Shown: in pieces, positions 18,337 to 33,619 of the stretch | How positions within the stretch are numbered: position 1 is the first letter of the stretch | Layout: each line of letters begins with the position of its first letter | Source: a bacterium | GTDB taxonomy: Bacteria; Vulcanimicrobiota; Vulcanimicrobiia; Vulcanimicrobiales; SCRA01 | Direction of reading: 5' to 3' | DNA: 36,766 bases | NCBI GenBank assembly: GCA_004298665.1 | Contig: SCQY01000089.1 | Coordinates: forward strand, 1-36,766 | Made by a program: the position numbers and the translations under genes | The notes under the pieces: generated by a model | The model's database searches: none | Told to the model about the DNA's origin: nothing | What the model saw: only the letters and a program-made list of their open reading frames with translations

Positions 18337-18798
18337 ATGCGCGTCCTCGTGCTCGCCGTCGGCCGAATCAAAGAGCGCTACGTCGCTGCAGCCGTCGAGG
18401 ACTTCGCCCGCCGCCTGCGGCCCTATCTCCCGCTAGAGCTGGCCGAGGTCCAGGCCGCGCACGGCGGCGACCCAGCCGCGGCCATGCGCGAGGAGGGGGA
18501 GCGCATCCTCGCGCGCCTCGCGCCAAACGACACGATCTGGCTGCTGGAGCGCGACGGCGAGGAGTGGTCGAGCACGGAACTCGCGCAACGCCTCGAAGGG
18601 GTGCTGCACGGCGGCGCAAGCCGCTTGGTGGTGGTCGCGGCGGGAACATACGGTGCCGATACCGCGCTGCGCTCGCGCGCCACGCGCCTGTGGAGCCTTT
18701 CGCGCCTCACGCTTCTGCACGAATGGGCACGGGCGCTTGCGCTGGAGCAGATCTACCGCGCGATGAAGATCCTGCGCAACGAGCCCTACCACCATTGA
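18337..18798 (+). CDS. rlmH: 23S rRNA (pseudouridine1915-N3)-methyltransferase RlmH
   Basis: A 153-aa SPOUT-class methyltransferase that modifies pseudouridine 1915 in helix 69 of 23S rRNA. The C-terminal trefoil-knot signature is clear: AAGTYGADTAL, then LWSLSRLTLLHEWARALALEQIYRAMKILRNEPYHH, including the invariant YHH end. The N-terminus MRVLVLAVGRIKERYV is also typical. Length matches the family (about 155 aa). It starts 13 bp after dprA, with GGGGAA directly before the ATG, an unusually tight spacing, so coupling to dprA translation may matter. Confidence 0.95.
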   Translation: MRVLVLAVGRIKERYVAAAVEDFARRLRPYLPLELAEVQAAHGGDPAAAMREEGERILARLAPNDTIWLLERDGEEWSSTELAQRLEGVLHGGASRLVVVAAGTYGADTALRSRATRLWSLSRLTLLHEWARALALEQIYRAMKILRNEPYHH

Positions 18799-18878: not shown

Positions 18879-20570
18879 GTGTCCATCCTTCAGAGACTCG
18901 AGCAGATCGTCGATGCGCGGTTGGGCGCTGCCGTCCGACGTGCCCAGCCGGGTCTCAACGGCGGCGTAGCGCTTCCGGCGGCCAGCTTCGCGCCGGCACG
19001 CGACGCGCGGTTCGGCGACTACTCCACACCCGTGGCCATGCAGGCGGCGAAGGCGGCGCGCACCAATCCGCGCGCGGTCGGCGAAGCGCTGCGCGCCGCG
19101 CTCGAGGAGGCCGTGGCCGCCGACGCCGAGTTGGCCGGCGCCGTTACGGCGATCTCGCTGGCCGGCGCAGGCTTCCTCAACCTCACCATGGCCCCAGCCT
19201 ACTGGCAGTCGATCGTCGCGCAGGTGCTGCGTGAAGGTGCGGACTATGCCCGCCCGGCGAAGACGGGGCGCAAGATCAGCCTCGAGTTCGGCAGCGCCAA
19301 TCCCACCGGCCCCGTGGTGGTGGTGCAGGGCCGCTCCACGGCCGCCGGCTCGGCCTTAGCCAACGTGCTGCGTTTCTGCGGCAACGACGTCACCGTCGAG
19401 TGGGTCCAGAACGACGCGGGGACGCAGTCGGAGACGCTCGGGCGCTCGCTCCACGCACGATACTGCCAACTGTGGAAGCCCGCGCACCCGTTCCCCGAGG
19501 ACGGCTATCCCGGCGACTATCTGCTGCCGGTGGCCCAGGCGCTGCTCGCGCGCGACGGCGACCGCTGGCTGGATGCCGGCGAGGCCGCGTGGCTGGAGCC
19601 GCTCTCGATCTTCGCGCGCGACCAACTCGTGGCCGACCAGAAGCGGGACATGCACGACTTCGGCGTCGACTTCGACATCTGGCAGTCGGAGCGGGAGCTG
19701 CACCAGCAGGGGCGCGTCCAGCAGGCTCTCGAGGCCTTGAACGACGGCGGCCACTGCTACGAGCGCGACGGCGCGCTCTGGTTCCGCGCAACCGACTTCG
19801 GCGACGACAAGGACCGCGTGCTCGTCCGCAGCGACGGGCGCCCCACGTACTACGCCGGCGATACCGCATACCATTGGGAGAAGCTGCGCCGCGGCAACGA
19901 GCGGCTGATCGACATCTGGGGCCCCGACCACCATGGCTACATCCAGCGCATGAAAGCGGTCGTCGAAGCCCTAGGGCACAAAGATGCGCTGGAAGTGCTC
20001 ATCGCGCAGCAGGTCACGCTCAAACGCGGTGATGAGATCGTCTCATCCTCGAAGCGCCAGGGACAGGTCCTCACGCTGCGCGAGATCTTCGAGGAAGTGG
20101 GCGTCGACGCGGCGCGTTTCTTCTTCCTATCGCGCGCGCTCGACTCACATCTCACCTTCGACCTTGACCTCGCCAAACAACAGACACAGGACAACCCCGT
20201 CTACTACGTGCAGTACGGCCACGCCCGCATCGCAAGCGTACTGCGCAAGGCACCGGCGCAGCTCTTGGAGCGCGCGCGGCGTGCGCAGGATCTCGGGCTG
20301 TTGGAGCACTCCGCCGAGCTGGCGCTCATCAAGCGCTTAGCCCAACTGGGTGAGCGTACCCGCGCCGCCGCACACGCACGCGAGCCGCATCAGCTCACCG
20401 TGTACGCGCGCGAGTTGGCCACGGACTTCCACCACTTCTATACGGAGTGTCAGATCTTGGGCGAGGATGCCGCGCTCTCATCGGCCCGCTTGGCGCTCTG
20501 CCTAGCGGCCAAGCGCGTCTTGGCGACGACGCTCGAGCTCATGGGAATCTCCGCGCCAGACACGATGTGA
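18879..20570 (+). CDS. argS: Arginyl-tRNA synthetase with a degenerate HIGH motif
   Basis: A 563-aa class Ia synthetase charging tRNA-Arg. It has an N-terminal Add-1-like domain (about 1-115), a catalytic core from GSANPTGP (139-145) through NDAGTQ, YAGDTAYHWEKL and IDIWGPDHHGYIQRMKAVVEAL, then the KMSKS-loop region VSSSKRQGQVLTLREI (K392) and the DALR anticodon-binding helix bundle (YYVQYGHARI onward). The ATP-binding HIGH signature, normally NPTGPxHVGH, here reads NPTGPVVVVQ: both histidines and the glycine are replaced. Everything else looks intact. The GTG start at 18879 is preceded by GGGAG with 7 nt spacing; the frame is open upstream but lacks similarity. Its stop shares a base with the next ATG (TGATG). 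Confidence 0.92.
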   Translation: MSILQRLEQIVDARLGAAVRRAQPGLNGGVALPAASFAPARDARFGDYSTPVAMQAAKAARTNPRAVGEALRAALEEAVAADAELAGAVTAISLAGAGFLNLTMAPAYWQSIVAQVLREGADYARPAKTGRKISLEFGSANPTGPVVVVQGRSTAAGSALANVLRFCGNDVTVEWVQNDAGTQSETLGRSLHARYCQLWKPAHPFPEDGYPGDYLLPVAQALLARDGDRWLDAGEAAWLEPLSIFARDQLVADQKRDMHDFGVDFDIWQSERELHQQGRVQQALEALNDGGHCYERDGALWFRATDFGDDKDRVLVRSDGRPTYYAGDTAYHWEKLRRGNERLIDIWGPDHHGYIQRMKAVVEALGHKDALEVLIAQQVTLKRGDEIVSSSKRQGQVLTLREIFEEVGVDAARFFFLSRALDSHLTFDLDLAKQQTQDNPVYYVQYGHARIASVLRKAPAQLLERARRAQDLGLLEHSAELALIKRLAQLGERTRAAAHAREPHQLTVYARELATDFHHFYTECQILGEDAALSSARLALCLAAKRVLATTLELMGISAPDTM

Positions 20571-21655
20571 TGCGCTGGTGCGCCGTCTTCAGTCTCCACC
20601 TGGCGCCGGATCTCGACGCTGAAGCCGTTGCGCGGATGGCGGAGCGGGCTTATCGCCCGTTCGCGCGCCTGCTGTTACGCCGCCCCGCGCTGCGCGGCGG
20701 GCTCATCATCGAAGCCGGAGTCAGCGAACGGCTGTGGCGCCAGGGCCACGAAGACGTCATCATCGCCCTGCGCACGCTGATCGAACGCGGCCAGCTCGAG
20801 CCTGTCGACACCGCCGCCTACGGCGCCCCGCTCCCGCTGCTCCCCGAGGAAGAGATACGCCGTCAACTGGCGCGCAACGCCGCCATCAACCGCACCTACT
20901 TCGGTTTGGCCTACCGTCCGGCAGGCATGGTGGCGCGCGCCTATGCCGCCTCGCCCGCGCTGGCGCGCGCCGTACAGGACGAGGGGTACCGCTACCTGCT
21001 CTGCGATACGCGGGCCCTGCCCGCCCACGACCGCGCGACGTCGCACCTGCGCACACCGCGCGGTCTCGCCCTCCTGGGATGCGATCGAATGCTGGCCGAG
21101 GAGATCGCCGACCGTACGGCGCCGCGCGTGGAGACGCTTCGCGCCGCCTTTGCACGCGCCGGCGAGGACGCGCTCTCCATTCTGCCCGTCGAGCGGCTGA
21201 CCGAGGACCCCGCACGGATGCGGCGGCTGCTCACCGCCATCGAGCGCCAACTCCTGCGTTGCGGCACGCCGAGCGAGCTGTTGGCGGAAGCCCAGCGCAC
21301 TGGGCGAGCAACGGAGACGTGCGAGCCCGACGGCGGTCCATGGCTGCTTTGGCACGATCCCGGGAACCCCGTTCACCGCATGCAGTGGCGCTTCATCACG
21401 CACGCGCGCGCGCTGGTCACACGCGATCCCGAAGGCCATCCGCGCGCCCGCGAGTGCCTGGACCGCGCGCTCTGCGCCGATTTTCTCGCCGCTGCAGCGC
21501 CGCCGCCCCTCTGGGACCGTGCGCGCATCGAGCGCGGAGCAAGCCTGCTCTTGGAGAGCGCACTGGGCGCTCTGGGCGATGAGGAAGAACAGGCAGAGGC
21601 ACGTTTCTATGCGCTGGAGATCGGCGAGCGCGCCGCTACGATCGGGTCTCCCTGA
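20570..21655 (+). CDS. GH57-like (beta/alpha)7-barrel protein, probably catalytically altered
   Basis: A 361-aa protein whose first ~160 residues follow glycoside hydrolase family 57: an early His in FSLHLAP, YRPFARLLLRRPALRGGLIIEAGVSERLWRQGHEDVI, RTLIERGQLEPV, and PLLPEEEIRRQLARNAAINRTYFG. GH57 enzymes (alpha-amylase, glucanotransferase, branching enzyme) place the nucleophilic Glu shortly after this, in a G-x-x-P-P-E type motif; here the aligned stretch is PAGMVARAYAAS with no Glu. The protein is also shorter than typical GH57 enzymes. It is therefore likely a non-hydrolytic relative or one with a different reaction. The ATG overlaps the argS stop (TGATG), and the 3' end overlaps the convergent permease gene by 20 bp. 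Confidence 0.65.
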   Translation: MRWCAVFSLHLAPDLDAEAVARMAERAYRPFARLLLRRPALRGGLIIEAGVSERLWRQGHEDVIIALRTLIERGQLEPVDTAAYGAPLPLLPEEEIRRQLARNAAINRTYFGLAYRPAGMVARAYAASPALARAVQDEGYRYLLCDTRALPAHDRATSHLRTPRGLALLGCDRMLAEEIADRTAPRVETLRAAFARAGEDALSILPVERLTEDPARMRRLLTAIERQLLRCGTPSELLAEAQRTGRATETCEPDGGPWLLWHDPGNPVHRMQWRFITHARALVTRDPEGHPRARECLDRALCADFLAAAAPPPLWDRARIERGASLLLESALGALGDEEEQAEARFYALEIGERAATIGSP

Positions 21656-29070: not shown

Positions 29071-29603
29071 GCGCCCAGCTCCCACCTGCCGAGCGTGGTA
29101 TAACGGGCGCCGCTGGCCAGCGTCGTGCTTTCCACCAAGGCGATCTCCCGCACCGCCCAGCGCACGGGAGCGACGTCGAGTGGCGCCAGCTGCACGGGGA
29201 GCTTGGCGCGCGCGATCGTTACGTGCGGGAGGGCCTCCTTCTCGTCGAGCGCGATGCCGCGATCGCGCAAGCGCTCGCGCAGCGTGTGCACCGCAGCGCG
29301 AAAAGGCGCATCCTCACCGCCGGCTCCCAACCACAGCACGTTCGCCCGCTGCTCGCTGGGAAAGCCGCCGACGCGGTCGATCACGAGATCGAAAGGCGCC
29401 TGCGCCGCCGCCCACGCGCAGGCACGCGCGACCTCCTCCACGCGTCCCCGCTCGACCGTTCCCAGGAACGCCATCGTCGCGTGCAGCTGGTCGGGCGCAT
29501 AGAAGCGTAAAGCAAGTCCTCGGGCTCGAAGCGCCGCCTCCGCGTCGACGGCGCGCGCTCGCACGGCTTCGTCGACCCAGGCGGCTATGAATAATCTGGG
29601 CAT
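29067..29603 (-). CDS. thpR: RNA 2',3'-cyclic phosphodiesterase (2H family)
   Basis: A 178-aa 2H phosphoesterase of the LigT/ThpR type, which opens 2',3'-cyclic phosphates on RNA and was first described as a 2'-5' RNA ligase. The two catalytic HxT motifs are HATMAFLG (about residues 42-49) and HVTIARAK (about 125-132), with the usual N-terminal MPRLFIAAWVDE. The ATG at 29603 sits 10 bp after the MBL gene stop; the frame is open further upstream, but that part is antisense-like inside the MBL gene. The 4-bp GTGA overlap with pyrD implies co-translation; no functional link to pyrimidine synthesis is known to me. Confidence 0.9.
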   Translation of the reverse strand: MPRLFIAAWVDEAVRARAVDAEAALRARGLALRFYAPDQLHATMAFLGTVERGRVEEVARACAWAAAQAPFDLVIDRVGGFPSEQRANVLWLGAGGEDAPFRAAVHTLRERLRDRGIALDEKEALPHVTIARAKLPVQLAPLDVAPVRWAVREIALVESTTLASGARYTTLGRWELGA

Positions 29604-29613
29604 CGCCTGGAGG

Positions 29614-30408
29614 TTAGGGGCTGGCGGCGGCCAGCTCCTCTTCCACATCGAGCTCCCAGTCGTCGTGAGCGGCATAGACGCGCAGCCCAAGCTCTTGCTC
29701 CAGCTGGCGCGCCAGCAGCCACGGCTTGCGATCGAGCATCTGCGTGCCGAAGTGCGTCAATACGGCGATGCGCGGGCGAACGGTTCCCAAGATCTCGCGC
29801 GCGTCGTCGAAGGTGAGATGGTCGACGTCCATGCGGTCGCGAAAGCGCAAGACGTTCACGATCAGCACGTCGGGCCGAGCCTGCGCATAGTGCTCGGCCA
29901 AGCCGTCGAAGCGCCGCGTGCACGGCAGATACGAGATGCGCGTACCGGCGTGCAGGAAGTGGAGGCCGAACGTATCGACGCCGTGGCGATGGCGCACGGA
30001 GCCGCGGATCTCCACGTCGTTGACCGAATAGGGACCGCCGAATTCCGTCAGGTGCTCGATGCGGCTCAAGAAGCCTCGCACGTACGGCAGCACCACGCCT
30101 TCCTGGTCGAACGCGTCCGCCGGAGCCAACAGCATGCCTCGACGCTTCCAGCCGCCGTGAGTCATCGCCTCGATCATCACGTTGACGTCGCACGAGTGAT
30201 CGAGGTGCTTGTGCGAGAGCACGAGCGCGTCCAGACGCGGCGGATCCAGCGGCGGCTGATGCGAGAGCGCGCGCACCAGCGCCCCAGGCCCGGGATCGAC
30301 GTGGATATGCGTCGCGCCGAGCTCCAGCCAGATACCGCCGGAGGCGCGCAACTGCTTGGCGACGACGAAGCGTGCCCCGCCGGTGCCGAGAAAGATGATG
30401 CGGCTCAT
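29614..30408 (-). CDS. MBL-fold metallohydrolase (PhnP/RNase Z-like)
   Basis: A 264-aa metallo-beta-lactamase-fold protein. The metal site is HxHxDH at H66, H68, D70 and H71 (LSHKHLDHS), with a further acidic/His segment MDVDHLTFDDA and a late histidine in VLTHFG. The N-terminus MSRIIFLGTGGAR and HVDPGPGAL resemble PhnP and RNase Z-like phosphodiesterases acting on cyclic phosphate or nucleotide substrates. It is first of a run with thpR and pyrD (spacings of 10 bp and a 4-bp overlap). Two neighbouring enzymes able to act on cyclic phosphodiesters may cooperate; that is inference. Start ATG at 30408; divergent from the DUF2721 gene. Confidence 0.87.
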   Translation of the reverse strand: MSRIIFLGTGGARFVVAKQLRASGGIWLELGATHIHVDPGPGALVRALSHQPPLDPPRLDALVLSHKHLDHSCDVNVMIEAMTHGGWKRRGMLLAPADAFDQEGVVLPYVRGFLSRIEHLTEFGGPYSVNDVEIRGSVRHRHGVDTFGLHFLHAGTRISYLPCTRRFDGLAEHYAQARPDVLIVNVLRFRDRMDVDHLTFDDAREILGTVRPRIAVLTHFGTQMLDRKPWLLARQLEQELGLRVYAAHDDWELDVEEELAAASP

Positions 30409-30499
30409 GGGGCGTTATCCGCGCCTGCGCATACGCTCACCTGCGCTGGGGCGTGCAGACCCCAGGGGGGAGCTCATTGCCCCGCGAACCCGCAGGCCC

Positions 30500-30985
30500 A
30501 TGGCGGTGAACCCCTTTGGAGGCCACGATGCGCTCGCCGGCGTGGTCTCGCAGATGATCACGCCGGCCGTGCTGATCCTGGCCTCGGGGTCGCTGGTCTC
30601 CTCCACGCTGACGCGTCTAGCCCGCAGCGTCGACCGCGCACGCGTGCTCCTGCGTCAAGGGCAGGAAGCCCGCGCCGGCGGCGACCGGGCCAAGCAGACG
30701 CGCATCGAACGCATTCTCGTCACGCAGCGGCGGCGCGTCGAGCTCTCGGAGCGCGCGCTCTCCGCCTTCTACCTCGCGATCGGCTTCTTCGTGGCCTGCA
30801 GCCTTGCCATTGCCATCGACGCCCTCGTCGACGGGCGCATCGCGTGGGTTCCCGGTCTCTTGGCGATCCTCGGCGGCCTCGTGCTGCTGTTGGGCTCGGG
30901 CATGCAGGTACTCGAGACGAATCTCGCCACGGGCGGCGTGCAAGACGCGATCAACGAATACCACGCCGGTCTCGACGTCGAATAA
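30500..30985 (+). CDS. DUF2721 family membrane protein
   Basis: A 161-aa protein with three hydrophobic segments: VSQMITPAVLILASGSLVSS (about 16-35), FYLAIGFFVACSLAIAIDALV (about 91-111) and WVPGLLAILGGLVLLLGSGMQVL (about 116-138). The loop RLARSVDRARVLL and the final ETNLATGGVQDAINEY fit DUF2721, a family without known function. Between TM1 and TM2 is a basic coiled-coil-like stretch. The ATG at 30500 is the first reasonable start; the ribosome binding site is poor. The 91-bp gap to the divergent MBL gene holds no obvious promoter. It converges with the DUF1501 gene, 11 bp apart. Confidence 0.8.
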   Translation: MAVNPFGGHDALAGVVSQMITPAVLILASGSLVSSTLTRLARSVDRARVLLRQGQEARAGGDRAKQTRIERILVTQRRRVELSERALSAFYLAIGFFVACSLAIAIDALVDGRIAWVPGLLAILGGLVLLLGSGMQVLETNLATGGVQDAINEYHAGLDVE

Positions 30986-30996
30986 CGTTCGCCGCG

Positions 30997-32220
30997 CTAC
31001 CCGAGCATGGGCAGCATCGGCCAATCTCCCGCCAGCACGCCGGAAGCCGACCGCCCCAGCCACCGCTCGATGATCGTGGCGTAGATGCTGCGAAAATCCG
31101 TGCTGTAGGCAAGGTTCCCCTCATGGAGCCGCTCGAGGGACGGCGGCGTTCCGTAGAGCCCGCCCCTGACGGGGCCGATCACGAACATCGGGCCCGCCTC
31201 GCCGTGGTCGGTACCGCGGCTGGCGTTCTCCTCCACGCGCCGCCCGAACTCCGAGAACGTCATGGTCAGCACGCGCTGATCGTTACCGTGGGCCGCAAGA
31301 TCGTCGTAGAATGCGGCGAGCGCGTCGGAGAGCTGACCGAGGAGGCGATCCTGCGTCGCCTTCTGCGAGACGTGCGTGTCGAAACTGCCGTGCGCGACGT
31401 AGATGATGCGCGTCCCCAACGCAGGCGTGCCGATGATCTGCGCCGCGAGCGCCAGGCTGCGGCCGATGCCCGTGGCGGAATAGCTAGCCGTCGCCTTATA
31501 GCCGGCCACGAGCTTAGGCAGCTCCTCGCTGCCGCGCTGCGTGTCGCGTTGCACCTCGGCGATGGTGGGCAGGAAGGGGCTGCGGAACGGCAGATCGGCG
31601 GCATCGCTCTGCGCGGCGAAATCCTGCGCGCCGCCGCGCGTGCCGTCGATGGCCAGGCGGAAACCACGCACGCCCGCATCGATGGCGGGAACGTCGTGGC
31701 GCTCGGCGATGAAGAGCTCGGGGAGCACGGGCGAGACGGCGACGCCGGTGAAAAGGCTCTTGGGCCAATCGGCGCGATCGAGGAGGCGGCCCAGCCAGCC
31801 CGTAGCGTCGTATCCCACGGGGTCGGCCGTCTGCCAGATCTCCGTCGAGCGGAAGTGCGAGTGATCGGGATTGGGATAGCCGGCACCCTGGACAATGGCC
31901 ACGCGACCTTTGTCATACATCGCCTTCAACGCACGCATGGCCGGATTGAGGCCCACCGCGGCATCGATCGCGAGGACGTCATGAGGCGTGAGGGCGAGAT
32001 CCGGCCGCATGCGCTGGTAGACGGGATCGCCGTAGGGCACCAGCGTGTTGAGGCCGTCGTTCCCGCCTTGCAGGTTGAGCACGACCAGCACGCGGTTGCC
32101 GGGGCCCGCGCCGCCAACGAGCGTCTGCGCAAGGGCTCTGCCGAAGACGCCTTGGCCGCCGCCGATCAGCGCCAGGCCCGAGACCGTGCCGAGAAGGAAC
32201 TGCTTGCGTGCGATCGTCAT
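30997..32220 (-). CDS. DUF1501 family exported protein
   Basis: A 407-aa protein with an N-terminal export signal (MTIARKQFLLGTVSGLALIGGG ending near GRALAQ); most DUF1501 proteins use the Tat pathway, but only an R-K pair is present here. Family motifs include VLVVLNLQGGNDGLNTLVPYGDPVYQ, GYPNPDHSHFRSTEIW, YVAHGSFDTHVSQ and TFSEFGRRVEENASRGTDHGEAGPMFVIG, rich in His/Asp as in alkaline-phosphatase-superfamily relatives (sulfatase-like). Function unproven. The second of two tandem ATGs (32220) has AAGGAG 6 nt upstream. It lies 10 bp after a DUF1800 gene, its usual partner. Confidence 0.9.
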   Translation of the reverse strand: MTIARKQFLLGTVSGLALIGGGQGVFGRALAQTLVGGAGPGNRVLVVLNLQGGNDGLNTLVPYGDPVYQRMRPDLALTPHDVLAIDAAVGLNPAMRALKAMYDKGRVAIVQGAGYPNPDHSHFRSTEIWQTADPVGYDATGWLGRLLDRADWPKSLFTGVAVSPVLPELFIAERHDVPAIDAGVRGFRLAIDGTRGGAQDFAAQSDAADLPFRSPFLPTIAEVQRDTQRGSEELPKLVAGYKATASYSATGIGRSLALAAQIIGTPALGTRIIYVAHGSFDTHVSQKATQDRLLGQLSDALAAFYDDLAAHGNDQRVLTMTFSEFGRRVEENASRGTDHGEAGPMFVIGPVRGGLYGTPPSLERLHEGNLAYSTDFRSIYATIIERWLGRSASGVLAGDWPMLPMLG

Positions 32221-32230
32221 CATGCGCTCC

Positions 32231-33619
32231 TTACGCGAGCTGGTAGGCGGGGGTGGCCATGGCGAGATAGACGGCGCCGCGCACGCGCTGCTGATCGTCT
32301 CGCGAGTTGGCGCTGAGATAGGCGGCGATGCGCGCGCGCTGGGCGGGCGAGGCATCTCCTTGGAGCACCAGCTCCACGATAGCGCTCGCCAACGGCTGCG
32401 CGTCGAGCCCGCCGATGCTGGGCACGTAGTCAGCCGGATCGCTGGTCATCGGCGTCATCGCCACGGCGTCGGCAAAGTTCTGCCGCGCGAGCATCGTCGC
32501 CGAGTTGATCCACGCCGCGCCGCCCGGCCACCCCGCGACGTTTGGCGGAATGAAGAGCATCTGCCCCATGCGTGCCATCGCGGCCACCAGCGGCGCAGGC
32601 TCCGGGAGCGTGGCGCGCTCGACCATCCGCAGCATACCGATCACGAACTCCACCGGGCTCTTCACCAACGCGCGGTAGGCACGCGGCGAATAGAAGAGGC
32701 GCGAGCGCAGGAGCGTGCCCATGAACGAAGAGACCCGCCAGCCGTTGCCCGCGAGCAACTGGCCGTAGGCATCGACCAACTCGGGCTCGGGGTCCCAGTA
32801 CAGAAAGTAGGCCAACAGCTTCCCCGTCAGAAAGCGCGGCGTAGCCGTCTGCTGGTAGATGATGGAGATGACGTCGTCGCCGCTCCAGTTGCCGGTCCGC
32901 CCGAGAAACGTCTTGGGACCCGCATCGTGGCGGCGCGCCAGAAAGACGGCGCCGCCGCGATCGGCGAAACGCCCGCCGGTGAGCCCGTAGCCCGTGAAGG
33001 CACGCGCACTCTCGCGCACGTCCTGCTCGGTGTAACCGCTGCCGTGGCCCATCGTGAAGAGCTCCATGAGCTCGCGTGCGAAGTTCTCGTTGGGGCGGCG
33101 ATCGGAACTGCTCGCCGTATCGAGGTAACGCATCATCGCCGGATCGCGCACGAGCCGCCGCGTCAGGTCCTGGAGGCTGCCCAGCGCCATGCGGTGGTAG
33201 AGATTGATCTGGTCGATCATCTCCAGCGGCCGGGTACCCTTCTGAAAGACGGCCGAGGTGAAATGGCCGTGGTAGAAGAGCGCGAGTTTCTCTTGCAGCG
33301 GAGCGGGCGACGTCTGCATCCGCCCGAGCCACCAGCCCGCCATCGCCAGATAGCTCGCGCGACGTTCGTGCGGTTCCCATCCTAGCGCCCCGCCCGGCTG
33401 CGCTGGAAGCTCCGCCGCCGCCGAGAGATCCAGCAGCGAGTCCACGGCACGATCCATGCCCAGCGCCGCCAAGCGAGCGATGTCGTCGCGCGAGCCGCCG
33501 AAGCCCGCGCGGCGCAGCAAGTGGGCGGCATGGCGCTCCGTCCACGGTCCGCGATACGGCAGCAGCGCCGTACGCAGATCGAGCGCACCGGCAGGGCGAA
33601 ACGTCCTGGTGACATCCAT
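32231..33619 (-). CDS. DUF1800 family protein
   Basis: A 462-aa protein. Family features: HAAHLLRRAGFGGSRDDIARLAALG near residue 30, LQEKLALFYHGHFTSAV, DPAMMRYLD, RPNENFARELMELFTMGHGSGYTEQDVRESARAFTGY, and the C-terminal MGQMLFIPPNVAGWPGG. DUF1800 genes are regularly paired with DUF1501 genes; the proteins are large and of unknown activity, with conserved His/Asn/Glu suggesting an enzyme. No convincing signal peptide. A short palindrome (TCCGTT-acgata-AACGGA, 33643-33660) lies in the 87-bp leader and could be an operator; GGAGGACGTGGGA precedes the ATG. Confidence 0.9.
   Translation of the reverse strand: MDVTRTFRPAGALDLRTALLPYRGPWTERHAAHLLRRAGFGGSRDDIARLAALGMDRAVDSLLDLSAAAELPAQPGGALGWEPHERRASYLAMAGWWLGRMQTSPAPLQEKLALFYHGHFTSAVFQKGTRPLEMIDQINLYHRMALGSLQDLTRRLVRDPAMMRYLDTASSSDRRPNENFARELMELFTMGHGSGYTEQDVRESARAFTGYGLTGGRFADRGGAVFLARRHDAGPKTFLGRTGNWSGDDVISIIYQQTATPRFLTGKLLAYFLYWDPEPELVDAYGQLLAGNGWRVSSFMGTLLRSRLFYSPRAYRALVKSPVEFVIGMLRMVERATLPEPAPLVAAMARMGQMLFIPPNVAGWPGGAAWINSATMLARQNFADAVAMTPMTSDPADYVPSIGGLDAQPLASAIVELVLQGDASPAQRARIAAYLSANSRDDQQRVRGAVYLAMATPAYQLA

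Follow-up and report, generated by a model that had tools for sequence, protein, structure and literature searches.

The arginyl-tRNA synthetase (ArgRS) described here is encoded on a stretch of 36,766 nucleotides of a bacterial contig, which is called the window below. The organism belongs to Ca. Eremiobacterota / Vulcanimicrobiota, a group of about 48 genera that we refer to as the class. The features of the window on which the analysis relies are the following:

18337..18798, forward strand: rlmH, SPOUT methyltransferase (PF02590), the conserved upstream neighbour of argS
18879..20570, forward strand: argS, arginyl-tRNA synthetase, GTG start, 563 aa, HIGH-less
18927..19187, forward strand: Arg_tRNA_synt_N (Add1) domain of argS (PF03485, 45.6 bits)
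19299..19313, forward strand: NPTGP, residues 141-145, the retained lead-in to the HIGH helix
19317..19328, forward strand: HIGH equivalent V147-V148-V149-Q150 (canonical H-V-G-H), at the N-terminus of predicted helix 148-166
19923..19925, forward strand: P349 of GPDHHG, coupled partner site (GADHH to GPDHH)
20010..20012, forward strand: Q378, coupled partner site before the KMSK loop (L/M378Q)
20043..20054, forward strand: KMSK equivalent S389-S390-S391-K392, first Lys and Met lost
20208..20567, forward strand: DALR anticodon-binding domain of argS (PF05746, 111.5 bits)

Apart from the class I signatures, all tests place the argS product in the ArgRS family. It scored 353.7 bits against the TIGR00456 argS profile (cut-off 261.65) over residues 40-562, and its gene is the single ArgRS catalytic-domain gene of the window, as the preliminary description of this DNA had said. 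The translation gene rlmH directly precedes argS in gene order, and an RlmH C-terminal signature was found upstream of argS at 51 of 68 class loci. When we scanned the window for RNA genes, no tRNA genes and no Rfam matches were obtained. Adjoining argS downstream (20570-21655, forward strand) lies a gene with a glycosyl hydrolase family 57-like domain (PF03065, 58.7 bits), and at 29587-32316 on the same strand there is a 909-aa ORF with no Pfam matches at E<=0.001. The DNA here is GC-rich and has long overlapping ORFs on the opposite strand, so that this ORF may not be a gene. In a genome of the same order (G026:C3:1142405-1144090), the argS match falls into two blocks about 84 bases apart at query residue 363/364; one open frame runs across the gap, which gives an apparent insertion of about 28 residues.

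The catalytic signature by which class I synthetases are said to be defined is the HIGH motif (H-x-G-H). Where the class I ArgRS consensus reads NPTGP-LHVGH, the window protein reads NPTGP-VVVVQ (bases 19299-19328, AATCCCACCGGCCCCGTGGTGGTGGTGCAG, in the argS frame), so that VVVQ stands at the position aligned with HVGH. The preliminary description had reported four GTG codons and a CAG for V146-V149 and Q150, with both histidines and the glycine of HIGH missing, and both statements agree with our direct reading of the frame and with the alignment. It had also allowed for a canonical HxGH elsewhere in the protein; we found neither HxGH nor HxxH across the 563 aa. Its further statement that the remaining features are intact holds for the argS profile, Add1 and DALR but not for KMSK, which is eroded to SSSK. 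Indeed, the KMSK region of the window protein is SSSKRQG, where the second Lys, the Ser and the Arg are present; the site is S-S-S-K-R in the window's genus, whereas S-M-S-K-R prevails elsewhere in the class. Over an alignment of 102 sequences, S391, K392, R393 and G395 (SKRxG) are invariant, as are N141, P142 and G144 of the lead-in. The same is true of E136, N141, Y324 and D328, which, as their spacing corresponds to that of the arginine-binding residues of yeast ArgRS, we take to be the arginine pocket.

All class relatives in which the motif was read have the HIGH-less form in common, with L/V-[V/N/L]-V-V-Q at the motif and synonymous codons that vary freely. An exact degenerate DNA pattern for NPTGPxxVVQGR matched 91 of 117 class genomes, and the pattern-negative ones that were read carry the near variants NVVQ, VIVQ, AIVQ and SAVQ. 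Among 69 distinct class sequences position 149 is Val in every one, with all four Val codons in use, and position 150 is Gln throughout (CAG in 32, CAA in 37). Since the amino acids at both positions stay constant despite this codon turnover, selection on them is purifying, and the HIGH-less replacement is conserved under it. The low complexity of the run GTGGTGGTGGTG could suggest an assembly or base-calling error among the GTG codons, which the preliminary description had named as a ground for refutation. However, both congeners with an argS match (G001 and G003, 86% and 92% identical) carry VVVVQ in independent assemblies, G001 with GTC for one Val codon of the motif, and the motif recurs class-wide with varied codons. 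Chance and sequencing error are thereby ruled out, and we give an error next to no probability. Conservation of VVVQ among relatives had been proposed beforehand as a sign of a functional variant, and the HIGH-less variant is indeed conserved over the whole class.

In an AlphaFold model computed without ligands (mean pLDDT 96.8, pTM 0.94), the window ArgRS has a class I Rossmann fold in which a helix begins at the HIGH position: the motif starts helix 148-166, and P349 starts helix 349-364. The best Foldseek match in the PDB was Campylobacter jejuni ArgRS 3fnr (TMt 0.93), followed by other ArgRSs and then by CysRS and MetRS, and the ArgRS fold is predicted to be kept despite the loss of HIGH. 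Compared with bacterial ArgRSs of the KMSK type (NPTGPLHVGH...VKMSKR; 3fnr, TIGR00456), homology extends over the whole length, and Add1, class I core, DALR, the putative arginine pocket and SKRxG are common to both. The differences are VVVQ for HxGH, GPDHH for GADHH, QQ for QL/QM and SSSK for KMSK.

A PF00750 search found one ArgRS in the window's genome, whose assembly is 90% complete, and exactly one match in most of 60 relatives; 14 of 14 control genomes matched. A profile made from 102 ArgRS sequences gave no second ArgRS in 12 genomes, namely the window's and 11 others, the residual matches in other genomes (18-24 bits over 31-49 positions inside other long ORFs) not being taken as ArgRS. 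A second ArgRS was also absent in the large majority of about 90 other genomes. The paralogue with another role beside a second argS, one of two options in the preliminary description, thus lacks its second gene in the 12 profile-searched genomes. The single contig of G004 (3,508,363 bp), which we took, by its identical length, as the complete chromosome of Vulcanimicrobium alpinus WC8-2, holds one ArgRS, NPTGPLVVVQGR (VVVQ), which scored 346 bits against TIGR00456, above the argS equivalog cut-off. This cultured isolate has a complete circular chromosome of 3,508,363 bp (PMC9758169). In named HIGH-less genomes of other phyla an ArgRS match was obtained in 29 of 30, at a single locus in 28 of the 29.

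The exception among those genomes is G160 (Bacillota MAG YP2.bin78), in which L120 and L297 are two ArgRSs, one with NVVS and the other with HVGH and on a long branch; this pair is either a natural two-copy case or contamination. We also observed two VVVQ-type ArgRS genes in G104 (C1:456341-457933 and C4:64620-66185), probably from two strains, in an assembly with 7% contamination. Three ArgRS-like proteins of distant phylum members (L083:967-2841, L088:545-2443 and L079:621-2291) have NVDD or NFDD for HIGH and no KMSK; all three fall below the argS cut-off, and they are candidate ArgRS-derived proteins with another role.

The damage to both class I signatures, together with the presence in the same phylum of dead-looking paralogues such as L083 and L088 (NVDD, no KMSK), could suggest that the window ArgRS is itself a catalytically dead paralogue, in a regulatory or some other role, and that some unrecognised enzyme charges tRNA-Arg. 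We consider this highly improbable. It is disfavoured because the window ArgRS is the sole one in its genome and the VVVQ enzyme the sole one in V. alpinus, and a second ArgRS is likewise absent from the other genomes searched. Side paralogues such as NrtL (NF045898), L083 and L088 are also ArgRS relatives that lack HIGH. However, unlike the window ArgRS, L083 and L088 fall short of the argS cut-off of 261.65 (102-108 bits) and have no SKRxG, and the L088 genome additionally holds a normal ArgRS, L089. Neither of these marks of a dead paralogue, a normal ArgRS alongside or a score below the argS cut-off, is seen for the window ArgRS, which passes the equivalog cut-off and reached 121 bits against NF045898 (cut-off 340). 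Its putative arginine-pocket and SKRxG residues are invariant, and a dead paralogue would need a second, unrecognised ArgRS in roughly 15 phyla. We infer from its status as the sole ArgRS gene that the window ArgRS would aminoacylate tRNA-Arg. It is very probably a functional housekeeping ArgRS in which a histidine-free, bulkier replacement of HIGH goes with a rebuilt ATP site.

The HIGH-less form is not confined to the class, a breadth that the preliminary description does not mention. With each species represented by one genome, a scan for HIGH positions without His in the NPTGP context gave at least 119 records. Among the matches listed, the form N/V-x-V-S/N/Q is spread over roughly 15 phyla and is nearly always the only ArgRS present. 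These listed matches include Spirochaetes, Leptospiraceae, Cloacimonadota, Eisenbacteria, Krumholzibacteriota, Poribacteria, Zixibacteria, KSB1, Calditrichota, Latescibacterota, Rokubacteria/Methylomirabilota, Deltaproteobacteria, Bacillota including Sulfobacillus, WOR-3, FCPU426, Armatimonadetes, Actinomycetota and Eremiobacterota, and the motifs among them are NVVS, NIVS, NVVN, VIVS, VVVN and VVVQ. Since these public sequences satisfy the argS model, database entries presumably call them argS with no remark on the motif. In the open-access literature we found no description of a HIGH-less ArgRS, though a report that we have not seen may exist elsewhere, and nothing for the motif peptide string or on the essentiality of argS in Leptospira.

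When we aligned 161 NPTGP-type ArgRSs in which position 149 is G or V, residues 147 and 149 were found to have switched together in all 161, with H..G in 62 and a non-His residue followed by Val in 99, so that the third motif position is Val in 99 of 99 HIGH-less members. Two further sites follow the motif. At position 349 every one of the 62 canonical enzymes has A or S and none has P, which occupies this position in 92 of the 99 HIGH-less enzymes. At position 378, 76 of the 99 have Q or H, as do none of the 62, where L or M mostly occurs. On quick trees built with the coupled columns masked, at least 3 to 6 switches between H.G and N/V.V were counted; they fall within Spirochaetota, Bacillota, the Actinomycetota sample and the window's own phylum, which has both HVGH and NVVN. 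Where the motif is in a partial state, it is nearly always the last position that differs (HMGN, HLGN, HIGN). For A349P the independent events amount to 2 that are well supported and 6 over all branches, and the sign test is not significant; the direction of the association is consistent, but the events are too few for it to become formally significant. An exception to the coupled switch is a HIGH-less clade of Actinomycetota, where A349 is kept in 6 of 7 members and Q378 is absent. This clade (L102, L346, L347, L352, L353, L355 and L356) is nested among HxGH enzymes, L355 having the motif SVVL; L357, which lies outside it, has LVSH.

The first His and the Gly of HIGH change together, in association with A349P and often with L/M378Q, and we argue that these coupled changes and the repeated coupled switching point to a defined alternative state of the enzyme. 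The other option in the preliminary description, a lineage with a variant ATP site, is supported by this coupling at second sites and by the occurrence of the variant class-wide and in about 15 phyla, as the sole ArgRS of genomes that are complete or nearly so. One could suppose instead that constraint has been relaxed, a declining and merely slow enzyme being tolerated by oligotrophic slow growers with nothing to compensate. V. alpinus and its phylum are indeed described as oligotrophic (PMC9758169), and KMSK is without its first Lys and its Met as well in the genus of the window (SSSK). However, purifying selection at the motif is strict (V149 in 69 of 69 class sequences), and the coupled P349 and Q378 changes and the repeated coupled switching speak for the alternative state. 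We hold relaxed constraint to be very improbable.

The closest published parallel to the HIGH-less ArgRS is IleRS2, whose natural non-canonical G/AxHH signature was called exclusive to that enzyme (Brkic et al. 2023, PMC10485003). Its activity is only mildly affected, and the Gly can be replaced by a bulky residue because the helix tip has moved 1.7 A away from adenine (PMC10485003). Both systems share the natural loss of HxGH, a bulky residue at the site where Gly packs on adenine, and polyphyletic gain and reversion. They differ in that IleRS2 keeps two histidines, at motif positions 3 and 4, whereas the ArgRS form has none and a Val at the third position, and in that IleRS2 is a resistance form of IleRS while the HIGH-less ArgRS is the sole housekeeping enzyme. 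In ArgRSs of the Bacillota type (NIAKPF-G/S-x-GH, KMSTR) the first HIGH His is likewise absent (GIGH, SMGH) from a standard ArgRS; these keep the Gly and the second His and form a different subfamily, with a Lys before the motif. When HVGH was changed to AVGA in P. horikoshii LeuRS and the LeuAC urzyme, a class I core without the HIGH histidines still catalysed (Tang et al. 2023, PMC10450160). Much of the rate was attributed to the backbone, and the full-length mutant was weaker than wild type (PMC10450160). That LeuRS is engineered and retains the Gly, unlike the natural Gly-less ArgRS.

Activity of the HIGH-less enzyme has to be set against what is reported for other class I enzymes, in which mutating the first HIGH His lowers activation about 1000-fold and the Gly is described as needed for adenine (PMC10485003), so that one would expect the loss of all three residues to leave an ordinary enzyme crippled. 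A mechanism that dispenses with the histidines is nonetheless plausible given that HIGH contacts the ligand mainly with ATP bound (PMC5919687), that the AVGA LeuRS core is active (PMC10450160) and that the tip is shifted in IleRS2 (PMC10485003). With its putative arginine-binding residues, DHHG region and SKRxG loop kept, the window ArgRS should still form Arg-AMP and charge tRNA. Arginine would still be activated with ATP, and the transition state would be stabilised in the absence of the HIGH histidines. Candidate substitutes for these are the backbone of the HIGH-helix tip, the SKRxG loop (K392) and tRNA-dependent closure. ArgRS requires tRNA for amino acid activation, which makes tRNA-assisted closure a candidate. 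If P349 and its neighbours let the helix tip shift, Val149 may find room at the adenine-packing Gly site; the obvious candidates for bringing about such an IleRS2-like displacement are P349 and Q378. Living sequences suggest an order of erosion from HVGH through HxGN, NVVN/NVVS and NVVQ to VVVQ, the direction being a reading only.

As to why HIGH was replaced, antibiotic resistance could have been the driver, the altered tip excluding a natural mimic of arginyl-adenylate. We know of no natural ArgRS-directed adenylate mimic, which counts against this idea. In its favour, H.G and N.V have been exchanged repeatedly within phyla, and in IleRS2 the altered motif gives mupirocin hyper-resistance (PMC10485003). 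However, very deep clades have the HIGH-less form as their single housekeeping copy and not as a mobile second one, and resistance is on balance an unlikely driver. It does not conflict with an active ArgRS, since it addresses why the motif changed and not how the enzyme works.

More broadly, we define a second version of the ATP site as N/V-x-V-S/N/Q together with GPDHH and a Q before the KMSK loop. Bacterial ArgRSs in a large and polyphyletic set may have a second, histidine-free class I ATP site, with a shifted ATP pose and stabilisation mainly by backbone, SKRxG loop and tRNA closure, which is reached repeatedly by one coupled and reversible switch; we give this proposal an even chance of being right. 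If the two versions do interconvert in this manner, HIGH would be no universal class I requirement. A survey had found HIGH in every class I protein examined (PMC6366043), and its partial alteration in IleRS2 was termed a major surprise (PMC10485003). Were our reading true, the signature could be lost even from an ArgRS that is the only one, and presumably essential, in whole bacterial classes, and a reversible coupled switch in a class I ATP site would be defined. Motif-based annotation and HIGH-directed inhibitors may miss HIGH-less ArgRSs, and these would be natural enzymes in which to weigh the shares of the backbone and the KMSK loop in catalysis, the question raised by urzymes.
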